Positions 5,499-35,035 of a stretch of 64,000 bases of DNA are shown piece after piece. The stretch is from Halopiger xanaduensis SH-6. GTDB lineage: Archaea; Halobacteriota; Halobacteria; Halobacteriales; Natrialbaceae. The stretch covers positions 1,996,270-2,060,269 of the forward strand of contig NC_015666.1 in the NCBI RefSeq assembly GCF_000217715.1, written 5' to 3'. Positions within the stretch are counted from its first letter, which is position 1. The number at the start of each line of letters is the position of its first letter. The notes beneath the pieces were generated by a model. It did no database searches. It was given only the letters and a program-made list of their open reading frames with translations, and was not told the origin of the DNA. The translations under genes were made by a program, and so were the position numbers.

Positions 5499-5681
5499 TC
5501 AGTCCCAGAGGTGCAGGCCGACGACCGCTATCGCGCTAAAAAGTACCGCGGCGCCGAAGCCCCAGGCGGCCTGGATCTCCGGTGCACCGATCACCATCAG
5601 TAGCGCGCCGAGCACTGCGATCGCTCCGCAACCGAGCGCCAGTCCGACGCCCTTGTCCGTCGACTCCGTTTCGGTAGCCAT
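5499..5681 (-). CDS. small two-helix membrane protein (DUF7525-like)
   Basis: This is a 60-residue protein with a short acidic head (MATETESTDKG) and two hydrophobic helices at about 12-31 and 37-57, joined by GAPEIQ. It is probably anchored in the cytoplasmic membrane. A TTAAG element about 25 bases before the ATG (plus 5705-5710) supports leaderless expression. Haloarchaeal genomes carry many such conserved orphan proteins. No function can be assigned. Confidence 0.7.
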   Translation of the reverse strand: MATETESTDKGVGLALGCGAIAVLGALLMVIGAPEIQAAWGFGAAVLFSAIAVVGLHLWD

Positions 5682-5802
5682 GCGTGAGCGTTGTTAGCGG
5701 GGTCTCTTAAGCGCACTTGTTCGCGGCCGTATTTGTGTCGCGACCGGTCGCTGCAGCGCCGGGAGAAGAGTGAGGGTATCGCAGAAACTCGAGTCGGAGC
5801 CG

Positions 5803-6834
5803 TTAGTTGATCGTCGTGTGCTCGGACTCCTCGTTCAGCGCGAGGTTGGCCGCGATCTCGGCGTTTCGCATCGCGTACTGGGCCGTCTGCTCGAGGCTGA
5901 CCAGCACCTCTCGAACCCGCAGCAGGTCTTCGTTGGGCATCTCCGGCAGATCCGCGAGGATCTCGTCCTCGAGGGTGGAGATCTCGTGGAAGAGGCCGCG
6001 GACCTGATTGGACTTGTCGTAGTCGCGCTTGACGGCCGCTTCGACCGCCAGCGAGGTGATTTCGTCGACGAGATCGTTCAGTTCGCGGATGTCCCGCATG
6101 ACGGAGCTGTCGACGTCCAGCGTGTGGCTCTCGGTCTCGATGACGATCTCGGCGATGTCTTCCCCGTTGTCGGCGGTTAGCTCGAGGTTCTTCGCGATCG
6201 AGCGGTAGCCGATCAGCGGGAAGCCGCTGCTGAGTCCGACCGCGCGGGCGAGGTTGGGGTTCTGGTAGGCCGTGAAGATCAGGCGCAGCAGGAGCACGAA
6301 GATCTTGTTAGCCTGTCGCTCCCGGTTCAGGGCCCGCTGGGCGAGGTCGGGGTTGCCGTGGGCCAGGGCCTTGATCCCTTCGCCGCGCATCGTCTGGCCG
6401 GTTCGCTCGAGGCGCTCTAAGAGGTTGTCGAGGGTGAAGTCCTCGGGGTCGACCGAACAGCGGATGGAGATGCTCTCGGGGGTTTCCTCGATGACGCCCA
6501 GGCCCATCAGCTGGGTTTCGGCCTGGTAGACCGCGTTGATGTGGTCGGAGTCGAGCGCGCCGTCCTCGCGCTCGATGCGGATGACGCGCCGGCCCAGCAC
6601 GTACTGGGCGACGATCGCGCGCTCGACGGCGTCGGCGTCGAGATCGTCGGCGTGAATGATCGCCTCCGTCTCCTCGGAGCTGGCCGATTCGGGCATCACG
6701 GTCAGGGTGCCCTTGCCGCTGGTTCGCAGGGAGACCTCGTCGCCCTTCTCGACGGCGTGCTCGGACGCCCACTCCGCGGGCAGCGTCATCGCGAGGGTCG
6801 ACGGGCCGAGTCGTTGCACTTTCCGGGTTTCCAT
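5803..6834 (-). CDS. PhoU-domain phosphate uptake regulator with AbrB-like N-terminus
   Basis: The 343-residue protein has two parts. Residues 1-50 (METRKVQRLGPSTLAMTLP...) form an AbrB/SpoVT swapped-hairpin DNA-binding-like domain, and the rest is an all-helical PhoU-type domain with two three-helix bundles. This fusion is common in archaea and is annotated as a phosphate-transport regulator; it may act on DNA directly, unlike bacterial PhoU. No pst genes lie in the window, so the target is elsewhere or this protein regulates something other than phosphate. The promoter region contains a TGAC-N6-GTCA palindrome (see 6867-6880). Confidence 0.88.
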   Translation of the reverse strand: METRKVQRLGPSTLAMTLPAEWASEHAVEKGDEVSLRTSGKGTLTVMPESASSEETEAIIHADDLDADAVERAIVAQYVLGRRVIRIEREDGALDSDHINAVYQAETQLMGLGVIEETPESISIRCSVDPEDFTLDNLLERLERTGQTMRGEGIKALAHGNPDLAQRALNRERQANKIFVLLLRLIFTAYQNPNLARAVGLSSGFPLIGYRSIAKNLELTADNGEDIAEIVIETESHTLDVDSSVMRDIRELNDLVDEITSLAVEAAVKRDYDKSNQVRGLFHEISTLEDEILADLPEMPNEDLLRVREVLVSLEQTAQYAMRNAEIAANLALNEESEHTTIN

Positions 6835-30393: not shown

Positions 30394-31545
30394 TTAGTCG
30401 CCCGAAGCCGGCCGCTCGATCGTCGATGTCTCTTCCCACGGCAGCGGTCCGTCGTACTCCCCGGGAACGTACGGACAGAGCGGGTCGCTCGCGAGCGGAT
30501 TCCCGGTGTGGGCGTAGGCCCGCGAGCGGCTGCCGCCGCAGACGTGGTGGTACGGACAGGCACCGCACTTCCCCTCGAGGTTGTCGCGATCGCGCAGCGA
30601 CCGGAACAGCGACGAGTCGCGGTAGATGTCGGTGAGGGGTTCGTCGCGGACATTGCCGGCCGACTGCGGCAGGAAGCCCGAGGGGAAGACCTCGCCGGTG
30701 TGACTCACGAACGCGAAGCCGTCGCCGGCGATGATGCCGGTTCGGCGGCCGATGCCGTCTGCGGGTCCGTTTTCGGCGCTGGCACCGGAACCGGACCGAG
30801 GCCCGCCGCTCGAGCCGTCGGTCGCTCGCTGCATCGCGACCCGGCGGTACTGGGGCGCTTCGGTCGTCTTAACGCCGAACGGCTCCTCGTCGCTGACGTC
30901 GTTCAACCAGGCCATCACCGCGTCGGCCTCGTCGGGATCGATCGGCTCGAGGACGCGGCCGCGGCCGACGGGCACGAGGAAGAAGACGCTCCACAGGACC
31001 GCGCCGAGATCGCGCAGCAGCTCCCTGATCTCGGGGAGTTCGCCGACGGTCTGGCGGCAGACGGTTGTGTTCACCTGCACGGGGAGACCGGCCGCGCGGG
31101 CGTCCTCGACGGCTCGCACGGTTTCCTCGAAGCTCCCGTTCTCGCCGCGGAAGTCATCGTGGGTCGCGGCCGACGCGCCGTCGAAACTGACCGCCATCCG
31201 CTTCAGCCCGGCGTCGGCCAGCGCCTCGATGCGGTCGGCGGTCAGCGAGTGGGTCCCGCTGGGCGTGATCGTCATCCGGAGACCCAGGTCGGTCCCGTAA
31301 TCGACCAGTTCCTCGACGTCGTCGCGGACGAGCGGATCGCCGCCCGAGAGGACGACTAACTGCCCCTCGCCGAACTCGGCGGCCTCCTCGAGCAGGCGCT
31401 TTCCCTCGGCCGTCGAGAGTTCGTCGGGGTGGCGTTTCTCCTGCGCGTCGGCCCGGCAGTGGTCGCAGGCGAGCGCGCAGGCCTGGGTGACCTCCCAGAT
31501 GAGGACGAACGGCCGCTCCGACGTATCGACGTGACCTGGTCTCAT
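30394..31545 (-). CDS. radical SAM/SPASM maturase-like enzyme (TIGR04053 type)
   Basis: This 383-residue enzyme has the cluster motif CALACDHC (C23, C27, C30), an LVVLSGGDPLVRDD motif near residue 63, and a C-terminal SPASM domain with CGACPYHHVCGGSRSRA and a late Cys in DPLCPY. SPASM enzymes bind auxiliary 4Fe-4S clusters and modify peptides, or decarboxylate Fe-coproporphyrin (AhbD, a close relative). The family TIGR04053 is my recollection. Its divergent neighbour is a candidate RiPP protein, and a CGCGG-motif peptide lies 1.2 kb away, so peptide modification is the leading idea and haem synthesis the alternative. Residues 220-250 hold a Ser/Gly-rich insertion. Confidence 0.85.
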   Translation of the reverse strand: MRPGHVDTSERPFVLIWEVTQACALACDHCRADAQEKRHPDELSTAEGKRLLEEAAEFGEGQLVVLSGGDPLVRDDVEELVDYGTDLGLRMTITPSGTHSLTADRIEALADAGLKRMAVSFDGASAATHDDFRGENGSFEETVRAVEDARAAGLPVQVNTTVCRQTVGELPEIRELLRDLGAVLWSVFFLVPVGRGRVLEPIDPDEADAVMAWLNDVSDEEPFGVKTTEAPQYRRVAMQRATDGSSGGPRSGSGASAENGPADGIGRRTGIIAGDGFAFVSHTGEVFPSGFLPQSAGNVRDEPLTDIYRDSSLFRSLRDRDNLEGKCGACPYHHVCGGSRSRAYAHTGNPLASDPLCPYVPGEYDGPLPWEETSTIERPASGD

Positions 31546-31637
31546 TGCCCGGTACTTGCGAGCGACCGACGGAAAGTCGCACTCTCGTTCTCACCGGTCG
31601 GGAAGACGCGAACGCGTTCGCCCGATCGACGACGTGT

Positions 31638-31652
31638 TCCCAGCCGCTGGGA
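31638..31652. promoter_or_regulatory. inverted repeat in the divergent rSAM/RiPP promoter region
   Basis: TCCCAG-CCG-CTGGGA is a perfect 6-base inverted repeat in the 148 bases between the rSAM start (31545) and the partner start (31694). It could be a shared operator. Confidence 0.35.
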
Positions 31653-31693
31653 GTTTGGGGAACGATCTTCCTCGCCGTTTCGTACCGTCGAGT

Positions 31694-32053
31694 ATGGTCG
31701 AGAAGGCGCGCCGTGCGAAGGTCGAATACGACGACTCCGAATCGCCGATCCCGCAGTGGGAGGTCTTCGTCCGCGACGAGGAGGGCGGTCCGCTGCGCCA
31801 CGTCGGCAGCGTCGCCGCCGAGAGCGCGACGGACGCCCACGAACAGGCCTCGAGGCTGTTCGGCTGGTATTCGGTCGACCTCTGGGTCTGTCCGGCCGAC
31901 GAGGTCGTCCGGTTCTCGACGCGGGCCGTCGACGACGAGGCGGCCGATCCGGACGCGGACGACGATGGAACGACAGACGACACGGACGACGGGAGCGAGG
32001 AACCGCGCGTGTACAAGGAAACCGCCGGCGTCTCCGACGTAAATAGTTTGTAA
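31694..32053 (+). CDS. PaaB-like protein, Htur_1727-family candidate RiPP / rSAM partner
   Basis: This is a 119-residue protein starting MVEKARRAKVEYDD. The core (QWEVFVRDEEGGPLRHVGSV, then ATDAHEQASRLFGWYSVDLWVCPADEVVRF) resembles PaaB-like single-domain proteins. I recall a haloarchaeal family (Htur_1727) with this core, described as radical-SAM-partnered and a candidate RiPP; the divergent rSAM here fits. The rest is an acidic stretch and the tail YKETAGVSDVNSL, which would be the likely modified part if it is a precursor. A single Cys lies in WVCPADE. A longer frame exists upstream but begins in unrelated sequence. Confidence 0.75.
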   Translation: MVEKARRAKVEYDDSESPIPQWEVFVRDEEGGPLRHVGSVAAESATDAHEQASRLFGWYSVDLWVCPADEVVRFSTRAVDDEAADPDADDDGTTDDTDDGSEEPRVYKETAGVSDVNSL

Positions 32054-32721: not shown

Positions 32722-33024
32722 TCAGTCCCGAACGTGCGCGCGAGTTACGTGACCACCGCAGCCACACTGGTCGACGTACTCGAGGTCGACGTTCTCGAAC
32801 GCGGCCTCGAGTTCGTCCCAGAGGTAGGTTTCGGGGTGGCCGTGGTCGCCGTGGGTCACGAGGTTGACGTGGTAGCCGCTCTCGGTCGCCTCGACCGCGT
32901 CTTTGGCCTGCTCGACGACGAGGTCGCGGTCGGCCGCGTGTCGGGGCTGCTCGAGGTTCGCGGACCAGGAATTTTCGTGGTCGCGCCGCGTCACCGGTTC
33001 GACGTCGCTGACGTCTTCGGCCAT
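32722..33024 (-). CDS. CGCGG-motif candidate rSAM-modified RiPP protein
   Basis: This is a 100-residue protein. The body is charged and helical, with SWSANLEQPRHAADRDLVVEQA and a His-rich middle (VTHGDHGHPETY). Near the C-terminus, residues 87-91 are Cys-Gly-Cys-Gly-Gly, followed by HVTRAHVRD. I recall an archaeal family named after this motif, predicted to be modified by a radical SAM enzyme. The Gly/Cys-dense end is typical of SPASM-enzyme substrates. It lies 1.2 kb from the rSAM gene, on the same strand, with the pilin-like and Htur_1727-type genes between. Confidence 0.78.
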   Translation of the reverse strand: MAEDVSDVEPVTRRDHENSWSANLEQPRHAADRDLVVEQAKDAVEATESGYHVNLVTHGDHGHPETYLWDELEAAFENVDLEYVDQCGCGGHVTRAHVRD

Positions 33025-33132
33025 ACGGAACCGTCGGCGCTCGACGGCGCTAAGGGCTGAGCCGAACCCGTTCGGGCGGCGAACCGGTGGTATCCGTCGG
33101 TGACCGGCAGTCGGCGGTCCCGTGGCGTCCCG

Positions 33133-33555
33133 TCAACAGCAGAACATGAACGGGTAGATCAGCGCCACGCGGTCGCCGTCCTCGAGTTCCGTCTGGAACC
33201 CGTCCAGCAGTTCGTTGAACTTGCCGTTGACGCAGACGCGAGCGTAGGTGCGGGTCTGTTCGCCCTCGGGGTTCTTGCGCCAGGTCCCCGGCAGTTCCTC
33301 CGGCGGCTCCGCCCAGCCGTGGGCCGTCGCCTCCTCCTCCGTTTCGGCGATCAGCAGGTCCTCGACGTCGTACTCCGCGAAGAAGGCCTCGAGGAACGCC
33401 TGCAATCGGGTTCCCTCGAAGGTAAACTCGAGTTCGTGGGTGCCGACGGCTTCGCGGACGTGGCCGGTGCAGCGGACGGTAACGGTGGTCTCGGGAGTAG
33501 TTTCGCCGGTGTGATCGACATCGGTCGCCTGGTCGTGGGTAGCTTCGGCCGTCAT
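33133..33555 (-). CDS. MoaD/ThiS-like ubiquitin-fold protein with Cys-Cys C-terminus
   Basis: This is a 140-residue protein: an N-terminal unstructured part of about 25 residues, then a beta-grasp core (TVTVRCTGHVREAVG, FTFEGTRLQAFLEAFFAEYDVEDLL, YARVCVNGKFNELLDG, ELEDGDRVALIYPFMF). Standard sulfur carriers and SAMPs end in Gly-Gly to be adenylated; this protein ends in FCC, so it cannot act as a usual E1 substrate. The terminal cysteines could instead bind a metal or carry sulfur as persulfide. A middle insertion (about 70-95) is longer than in MoaD. It sits between the CGCGG gene and the membrane protein. Confidence 0.78.
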   Translation of the reverse strand: MTAEATHDQATDVDHTGETTPETTVTVRCTGHVREAVGTHELEFTFEGTRLQAFLEAFFAEYDVEDLLIAETEEEATAHGWAEPPEELPGTWRKNPEGEQTRTYARVCVNGKFNELLDGFQTELEDGDRVALIYPFMFCC

Positions 33556-33643
33556 ATCCGGTCGTACGACGTTGCGGGGCGAAAACTCGACTCCGAACGT
33601 GTTCGGGAGTAATCGAACGACGATCGAGAGCGAACGATCGCGT

Positions 33644-35035
33644 ATGAACCGGATGCCTGGCGGGTTACGGACCGATCAGCAACCGCCGACGGCGATCCCG
33701 TTTCGCCACTTCGTGCTCGCGCTGGCGTTTCTGGTCGCCGGTGTCGTCGGCGGAACGGTCCTGACCGTCACGACGCTGCCCGGACTGTCCGAGCTCGCGT
33801 TCGTCCACGTCGTTCTGCTGGGGTGGATCGCCGTGACGATCATGGGCGCGATGACCCAGTTCGTCCCCGTCTGGTCGGGCGTCTCGATCCACTCGCGCCG
33901 GCTCGCCGTCGCACAACTGTGGCTCGTCGTCGTCGGCCTGCTGGGCTTCGCCGGCGCCCTGCTCGCCGGCGAACTCGTGTGGCTTCCGGTCGTCGCCGCG
34001 CCAATCCTGCTCGGTATCTGGCTGTTCGTCTACAACGTCGGCCGGACGCTGCTGGGCGCGCGGCCGCTCGGCTTTACGGAGCGCCACTTCGCGCTCGCGC
34101 TCGCGTGTTTCGCCCTCGTCGCACCGCTGGGGTACCTGCTCGCGGTCGATTTCACGCGCCCGGCGTTCGACGCGGTGGCGCTCGTTCGCGGCGACGTCCG
34201 CCTGCTGCACGCCACGCTCGCGCTGTACGGGGCGCTGCTCGCGACCGTCCTCGGCGCGCTCCTCCAGCTCACGAAGATGTTCGCCCAGTGGGAGCTCGGC
34301 GCGCTCGAGGACCGCCTCCTGCAACTCGAGCAGGCCCTCTTTCCGACCGGCCTCCTCGCGTTCACGGTCGGACGCGCAGCCGGTACTGACCTCGTCGCGC
34401 AGGTCGGTGCGATGGCTCTGCTGGCCGGCCTCGTCGCGTTCACGGTCGTCGTCGTCCGCGCGCTCGCGGGATCAACCGCTGAGCGCTCGCCCATGACCGA
34501 CCGGTACTGGGTCGTCGTCGCGTCGCTGTACGCGTGGGCGTTCCTGACGGTTCCGGCGTGGTGGCTCGAGCCGACCGGCGAGACGGTGTTCGGTCACCCC
34601 GACGCGGCGAACGTCCTGATCTTCGGCGTCTTCGGCTTCGTCGTCGTCGGCTCGCTCTACCACATCGTTCCCTTCATCATCTGGCACGAACGGTACAGCG
34701 ACCGGCTAGGGTTCGAACAGGTCCCGATGATCGACGACCTCTACGACGACCGCCTCGAGCGGGCGGACTTCGCGCTCACGGTCGTCGCGCTCGTCGGACT
34801 CGCGACCGCGCCGCTGTTCGACCTGCCGGCCGCCGTCACGGTCGGAAGTGCAGTCCTCGGGACGGCCGGCGTCGTCCTGTTCGTCTCGAACGTGCTACTG
34901 ACGATCCACCGGCACGGGCCGAACGGGCTCGCTGGCGTTCTCATGACCGGAGACCGGCTCGAGTCCGAGGAGGGTGCGGACGACCTCGAGGACGGCGTCG
35001 GCGACCTCGGCGATGTCGAGGTTGAGGGCGACTAA
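33644..35035 (+). CDS. 12-helix membrane protein related to haem-copper oxidase subunit I / NnrS
   Basis: This is a 463-residue integral membrane protein with about twelve helices (for example FVLALAFLVAGVVGGTVLTV and LLGWIAVTIMGAMTQFVP). Histidines on helices resemble haem-ligand positions: FVHVVLLGW, LLHATLALYG and LYHIVPFIIWHERY. This is the pattern of COX1-like/NnrS-like proteins, which bind haem or copper. The last 30 residues are acidic and soluble. It starts at 33644; the longer frame beginning at 33572 would add sequence that lacks membrane character. It is divergent from the Cys-Cys beta-grasp gene with 88 bases between. Confidence 0.72.
   Translation: MNRMPGGLRTDQQPPTAIPFRHFVLALAFLVAGVVGGTVLTVTTLPGLSELAFVHVVLLGWIAVTIMGAMTQFVPVWSGVSIHSRRLAVAQLWLVVVGLLGFAGALLAGELVWLPVVAAPILLGIWLFVYNVGRTLLGARPLGFTERHFALALACFALVAPLGYLLAVDFTRPAFDAVALVRGDVRLLHATLALYGALLATVLGALLQLTKMFAQWELGALEDRLLQLEQALFPTGLLAFTVGRAAGTDLVAQVGAMALLAGLVAFTVVVVRALAGSTAERSPMTDRYWVVVASLYAWAFLTVPAWWLEPTGETVFGHPDAANVLIFGVFGFVVVGSLYHIVPFIIWHERYSDRLGFEQVPMIDDLYDDRLERADFALTVVALVGLATAPLFDLPAAVTVGSAVLGTAGVVLFVSNVLLTIHRHGPNGLAGVLMTGDRLESEEGADDLEDGVGDLGDVEVEGD

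Follow-up and report, generated by a model that had tools for sequence, protein, structure and literature searches.

A 64,000-nucleotide stretch of the genome of the haloarchaeon Halopiger xanaduensis SH-6 (contig NC_015666.1, positions 1,996,270 to 2,060,269; the window) contains a divergent pair of genes, one encoding a radical S-adenosylmethionine (SAM) protein and the other a small protein that resembles PaaB. The radical SAM gene, termed D, occupies positions 30394-31545 on the minus strand and encodes 383 amino acids, and its partner, termed P, occupies positions 31694-32053 on the plus strand and encodes 119 amino acids. Both reading frames are intact, and their divergent starts are separated by a 148-base gap with an inverted repeat, as described in an original prediction made from the sequence alone; the ATG of P at 31694 sits within a longer TTG-started frame opening at 31556. 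The family names proposed in that prediction were recovered by profile hidden Markov model searches, which gave 501 bits for D against TIGR04053 (cutoff 395) and 86.7 bits for P against TIGR04031, the Htur_1727 family (cutoff 57.2). The prediction further held that P is a candidate ribosomally synthesized and post-translationally modified peptide (RiPP), possibly modified by D at its short tail. Here, we describe a comparative analysis that points instead to oxygen-independent heme synthesis, with D as a predicted AhbD-type coproheme decarboxylase (heme synthase) and P as a predicted partner protein of the AhbC/AhbD heme branch.

The gap between the two genes holds the palindrome CGAACGCGTTCG (31609-31620, assigned to neither strand), 63 nucleotides from the start codon of D and 73 nucleotides from that of P. 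The palindrome matches CGAA-N4-TTCG, a NarO/denitrification-type box; the available text of PMC5746218 reports this box in promoters of denitrification genes and of ahbD in Haloferax volcanii, and that of PMC10062603 places a related motif 79, 66 and 69 nucleotides from three start codons in Haloferax mediterranei. Five matches to CGAA-N4-TTCG occur in the window, compared with 3.2 +/- 1.7 in shuffled sequence (at least five in 24 of 100 shuffles), so that the box is not enriched across the window overall. The number expected in the gap between D and P is about 0.01. Additionally, of 71 haloarchaeal loci, 25 have the box 30-130 nucleotides upstream of D, compared with a background expectation of 1.7.

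The radical SAM protein and a probable heme route

The cysteines of D resemble those of AhbD, the heme synthase of the siroheme-dependent pathway. The radical SAM motif CX3CX2C (residues 23-30; 31456-31479, minus strand) consists of C23, C27 and C30, as predicted. The SPASM set that had been assigned to D did not hold up, since a single auxiliary-cluster set, the AuxII-type motif CX2CX5CX20C (residues 327-357, C327, C330, C336 and C357; 30475-30567, minus strand), stands in place of the eight cysteines of SPASM. AhbD of Methanosarcina barkeri and of H. volcanii (HVO_2144) has in common with D both CX3CX2C and a C-terminal CX2CX5CX20-38C, whereas the AuxI cysteines of AhbD are absent from D. 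According to the available portion of PMC10452713, all 39 AhbDs of its comparison share the C-terminal AuxII-type motif, and the cysteine pattern of D equals that of the AuxII-only AhbD group of non-methanogens. In a profile scan, the families next best to TIGR04053 were the AhbD heme synthase, NirJ2, TIGR04347 and AhbC, which places D among enzymes acting on tetrapyrrole side chains.

D is 68-71% identical to its counterparts in seven Haloferax loci. At one of these (L053) the D protein scores 495 bits on TIGR04053, and halocyanin and norB genes lie downstream, as reported near HVO_2144. Deletion of HVO_2144 (ahbD) in H. volcanii is described, in the accessible part of PMC5746218, as leaving aerobic growth normal and making anaerobic growth very slow, and dimethyl sulfoxide (DMSO) respiration of the mutant is restored by protoheme. 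More distant relatives of D, at 51-54% identity, were found in nine loci of Acidobacteria. In one of them (L103) a Pfam scan identified norB, a ScdA-type hemerythrin and a CRP-type regulator near the D relative, again an anaerobic-respiration setting. D is thus probably an AhbD-type heme synthase, predicted from its sequence to convert coproheme to heme b.

The siroheme-dependent enzymes that would act upstream of this step were not found. In the genome that contains the window, AhbC (TIGR04347), the 12,18-didecarboxysiroheme deacetylase, was not found at an E-value of 1e-80, a search with TIGR04546 at 1e-20 matched only D itself, and PF17805, which we take to mark the siroheme decarboxylase AhbA/B, was not found. 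PF17805 was sought in 13 genomes; it was absent from the eight tested that lack AhbC and gave four matches in each of the five that possess it. The genome carries instead all four gene types of the coproporphyrin-dependent pathway (hemE, cgoX, cpfC and chdC), with hemE at 365 bits, the ferrochelatase gene hemH at 187 bits, the CgoX-like proto_IX_ox at 127 bits and ChdC (PF06778) all over cutoff; ChdC is carried by 53 of 54 genomes tested. With neither AhbA/B nor AhbC detected, and with hemE, ferrochelatase and a CgoX-like gene present, D would finish a coproporphyrin-type pathway, in which an AhbD-type enzyme would complement ChdC as an oxygen-independent second finisher, and P would be left without AhbC. 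The hemE, ferrochelatase and CgoX-like genes are clustered at about 9.7-13.2 kb of a 437-kb contig (G000:C1; L170, 5693-9234). This is not the contig of the window (C3), and since the cluster lies on a separate contig the coproporphyrin half of heme synthesis may be plasmid-borne here.

The distribution of these genes was determined in 391 genomes of the class to which H. xanaduensis belongs, which are related to one another, so that Fisher values for the counts are not probabilities of independent events. A gene was scored as present at an E-value of at most 1e-11 for P (241 genomes, 237 over the NCBI cutoff), below 1e-80 for D (271 genomes, 268 over cutoff), below 1e-150 for the haloarchaeal AhbC form TIGR04347, a second radical SAM gene termed C (226 genomes, four weaker matches being scored as absent), and below 1e-60 for hemE (93 genomes); genomes unlisted in a search were scored as lacking the gene. 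C and hemE are mostly exclusive, with 12 genomes carrying both (odds ratio 0.058), and one or the other is present in 266 of the 271 genomes with D, compared with 41 of the 120 without it. As a control, the hemE search gave no match in H. volcanii, from which uroD, cgoX and cpfC are reported absent in the part of PMC5746218 available. Seventy-nine of the 391 genomes lack AhbC, D, P and hemE, and ChdC is present in nine of the ten of these that were tested.

The PaaB-like protein and its genomic partners

The resemblance of P to PaaB, noted in the original prediction, was substantiated by both sequence and structure. P scores 33.8 bits on the Pfam PaaB model (PF06243, cutoff 27) and shares the PaaB core motif EVFVR...HVGS...W. 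In an AlphaFold2 model of P, residues 21-70 have block means of 93-96 in the predicted local distance difference test, and the tail is of low confidence. A Foldseek search with this model ranked the PaaB chains 3egr and 4iit first, the only ones with a probability of 1.0 among the 50 Protein Data Bank matches listed; no match had an E-value below 0.001. P is not a true PaaB of phenylacetyl-CoA epoxidase, as it scores only 28.4 bits on TIGR02157 (cutoff 85.45). It differs from PaaB in its acidic linker and tail, in its heme gene context and in a Cys66-Pro67 pair (31889-31894, plus strand), which is conserved in 149 of 158 family members and is replaced by V-P and V-K in two solved PaaB sequences. 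Among the same 158 members, G38, A42, L55 and W64 are invariant, R73 is conserved in 98% and His36 in 94%. Cys-Pro pairs are known from heme-regulatory motifs, and for this reason porphyrin binding by P is favoured; P would be a porphyrin escort or a docking subunit.

The tail of P, which had been proposed as the part modified by D, does not behave as a conserved core peptide. The proteins of 24 of the 158 members stop within 20 residues after R73, and the alignment columns beyond position 85 are poorly conserved except for a semi-conserved end motif of the EPRVYEET or RTHEL types, a loose pattern of which fits 74 of the 158 and speaks in favour of that proposal.

Co-occurrence of D and P across genomes, which the original prediction led one to expect, was found, although P proved to be tied more tightly to C. 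All three genes are present in 204 of the 391 genomes, C and D without P in three, C and P without D in 19, D and P without C in 18 (including that of H. xanaduensis), D alone in 46 and none of the three in 101. P was not found in any of the 391 genomes without C or D (0/101 of those lacking both). It accompanies C in 223 of 226 genomes and is present in only 18 of the 64 genomes that have D without C; in all, 49 of the 271 D genomes lack P.

Gene order reflects the same association, AhbC being the usual neighbour of P in relatives. In the best 30 TIGR04031 loci a same-strand radical SAM gene lies directly 3' of P in every case (30/30), and D lies within the same 3.2 kb in eight; the five of these second genes that were scanned all belong to TIGR04347 (674-702 bits, cutoff 525). 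Among 80 named loci assembled around relatives of D, 71 of them haloarchaeal, P is present in 24, with C immediately after it in 21 (16 of these in the order D-P-C with D divergent) and with D only in three, all from Natronococcus. In Haloterrigena turkmenica, ahbC is Htur_1726 and ahbD is Htur_1728 according to the available part of PMC3403918, which by locus number puts Htur_1727, the TIGR04031 type gene, between them. No fusion of P and AhbC was seen, the two being separate open frames wherever both occur in the loci examined. In the window, the position 3' of P that AhbC takes in relatives is filled by a type IV pilin-like gene (PF07790; 32188-32685, plus strand).

Some AhbC homologues have lost their radical SAM cysteines. 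Homologues without CX3CX2C lie directly after P in L196 and L201 (genus g47, seven genomes in the sample) and in L207-L210 (genus g54), all six of those inspected; seven further P-adjacent C genes from this set retain the motif. The retention of P before the motif-less homologues suggests that its role is independent of AhbC radical chemistry. The six genomes with such homologues carry hemE. On the strength of these associations, P probably belongs to the heme branch as a protein linked to AhbC, and stands here without AhbC.

Explanations for the gene pair

We favour, with a probability of roughly 0.6, the explanation that D and P act in oxygen-independent heme synthesis, D as an AhbD-type enzyme and P as an accessory of AhbC, whose gene was not found in this genome. 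Coproheme would be supplied by the coproporphyrin-dependent route, and heme would be finished by ChdC when oxygen is present and by D when it is not. An oxygen-responsive or NarO-type regulator bound at the palindrome at 31609 would switch on both D and P under oxygen shortage. The PaaB domain of P might bind porphyrin or hand it on through His36 and Cys66-Pro67, and the flexible tail of P might dock on AhbC-type enzymes; these last two steps are the least certain.

A number of observations weigh against this explanation. D scores 343 bits on the NCBI AhbD model TIGR04545, under its cutoff of 500; because the Haloferax D of L053 likewise falls short at 332 bits, we claim for D an AhbD-like action and membership in TIGR04053, and not membership in TIGR04545. 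The orthology of D to HVO_2144 is based on identity and neighbours rather than on a tree, and the portion of PMC10452713 consulted states that no member of the AuxII-only AhbD group has been studied biochemically. Protoheme alone fails to restore denitrifying growth of the HVO_2144 mutant, and restores it only partly with added DMSO, an incomplete rescue that the authors of PMC5746218, in the text available, ascribe to uptake. Both C and hemE are missing from five D genomes, and the co-occurrence counts are uncorrected for shared ancestry. With respect to the promoter, the exact box at the distance given above is lacking in 46 of the 71 haloarchaeal loci, and a site within 250 nucleotides is present in just seven of the 19 loci in which P diverges from D. 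CGAACGCGTTCG departs from the H. mediterranei denitrification motif CGAAYATDKTYG by two mismatches in its centre and equals the engineered nos promoter variant nospMUT6+7, from a set of mutations that, except for number 12, lowered activity according to the available text of PMC10062603; the same 12-mer occurs in native sequence upstream of D at the Haloferax loci L049 and L053. With respect to P, porphyrin binding remains a prediction, Cys66 is substituted in eight of the 158 family members, and a radical SAM gene is absent within about 1.5 kb of P in seven genomes.

Further points of this kind concern the fate of P where C is lacking, and they favour at the same time the view that P is here a relic, deprived of AhbC by the takeover of the coproporphyrin route and now decaying beside D. 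Neither C nor PF17805 was detected in this genome, and P is missing from 46 of the 64 D genomes without C. The pooled ratio of nonsynonymous to synonymous substitution rates (dN/dS) of P is raised in C-less lineages, at 0.51 (14 pairs, 6 loci) compared with 0.33 in those with C (111 pairs, 21 loci), values that derive from a domain of 62-69 codons and from related pairs and are noisy, single C-less pairs ranging from 0.25 to 1.05. Natronococcus sp. A-GB1 has a P that is split over different reading frames (L041, at about 5500-5900), and no C gene lies within 6 kb of its D. The weaker constraint on P without C and its broken copy in L041 indicate that P in the window may be in the course of being repurposed for D or of disappearing. 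A relic is nevertheless an improbable description of P as it stands, although we rank it first among the alternatives: its frame is intact, its promoter box is retained, its close relatives, at 78-85% identity, keep their full length, and the pooled dN/dS is under 1.

A more far-reaching version of the heme explanation would make P the founder of a new porphyrin-handling class, an escort of PaaB fold whose Cys-Pro pair and histidine hold coproheme for transfer from AhbC to AhbD or ChdC. Such an escort would have outlived AhbC when the siroheme route was exchanged for the coproporphyrin route, and would also accompany AhbC homologues without radical chemistry; we regard this version as doubtful. 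A function closer to that of PaaB is somewhat less likely still. In phenylacetyl-CoA epoxidase, PaaB has a proposed role as a bridge for electron transfer or docking, and P, which shares its fold and is always accompanied by AhbC- or AhbD-type genes, could similarly bring ferredoxin to AhbC and AhbD. The retention of P before C homologues that lack CX3CX2C, and would need no such electrons, argues against a bridge of this type, as do the 49 of 271 D genomes that dispense with P.

Another alternative assigns D to a different substrate altogether. A CGCGG protein of family TIGR03995, termed G, is encoded 1.2 kb away (32722-33024, minus strand; 137 bits, cutoff 70) and is called a "putative rSAM-modified RiPP" by NCBI; D might therefore be its maturase, in a peptide modification unrelated to heme, as a presumed partnership of TIGR04053 with TIGR03995 would imply. 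About 90 residues of G show high conservation (SWSANLE ... HVNLVTHGDHGHP ... QCGCGGHVTRVHV). Its gene is close to D, with a similar palindrome box upstream; in 13 of the 80 named loci it directly precedes D on the same strand with a gap of at most 120 nucleotides, and it occurs anywhere in the locus in 28. When G was sought in 240 of the 391 genomes, it was found in 132 of 167 with D and in 18 of 73 without. The co-occurrence is thus real, but the link is partial: 35 of the 167 D genomes lack G, 18 D-less genomes possess it, and the association is looser than that of D with a source of coproheme (266/271). In addition, heme rescues DMSO respiration in the deletion of the matching Haloferax gene, in the available account of PMC5746218. 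We therefore rejected D as a dedicated maturase of G and hold this alternative to be quite unlikely. A literature search on CGCGG with radical SAM and on BA_1875 returned nothing relevant by title.

Least probable by far is the RiPP precursor of the original prediction, with a tail modified by D, for which the NCBI family name and the semi-conserved tail end of many members speak, because the main genomic partner of P is AhbC and not D, near-tailless members exist, D occurs without P in 46 genomes that lack C, and residues 21-70 of P form a confidently predicted globular domain common to PaaB. The partner enzymes of P are of AhbC and AhbD type and tied to heme genes, which speaks against a dedicated RiPP maturase. 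The coproheme source in 266 of 271 D genomes, the absence of P from 49 of them and the heme-linked phenotype of the HVO_2144 deletion also count against the RiPP reading. What survives of the prediction, besides the family names, the PaaB resemblance and the co-occurrence of the two genes, is the bare idea of P as a partner or carrier for radical SAM enzymes. Htur_1727, TIGR04053 and TIGR04031 were not found in the literature searched, a scope outside which most subscription journals lie, nor, within the same scope, were HVO_1120 and HVO_1122, two guessed neighbours of ahbC; the wording "rSAM-partnered" or "candidate RiPP" did not appear among the matches listed for haloarchaeal RiPP literature.

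If oxygen-independent heme synthesis is indeed the function of the pair, an unrecognised accessory protein would be added to a heme pathway that has been studied for over a decade. TIGR04031, and perhaps also TIGR03995, would have to be re-read as anaerobic heme companions, and natural-product mining would be spared a false lead. Unusual in this explanation are the exchange of the upstream route, the persistence of P after that exchange and the reinterpretation of one or perhaps two families listed as "candidate RiPP". The explanation also suggests that haloarchaea reach coproheme by two exchangeable routes with the same finishing enzymes, and the question of which enzymes make coproheme in haloarchaea becomes testable by gene deletion.

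Neighbouring genes and further palindromes

The original prediction considered D and P as a pair; the AhbC-like third gene of relatives, absent here, formed no part of it, nor did G or two further CGAA-N4-TTCG palindromes nearby. One of these, at 33063-33074, lies upstream of G. The other, at 33594-33605, lies between a ThiS/MoaD-like gene (33133-33555) and an open reading frame at 33635-35035 that begins with an ATG at 33635. Together with the palindrome at 31609, these account for three of the five matches in the window, all of them intergenic and within 2 kb, an arrangement that suggests a small oxygen-regulated gene group reaching the open reading frame at 33635-35035.

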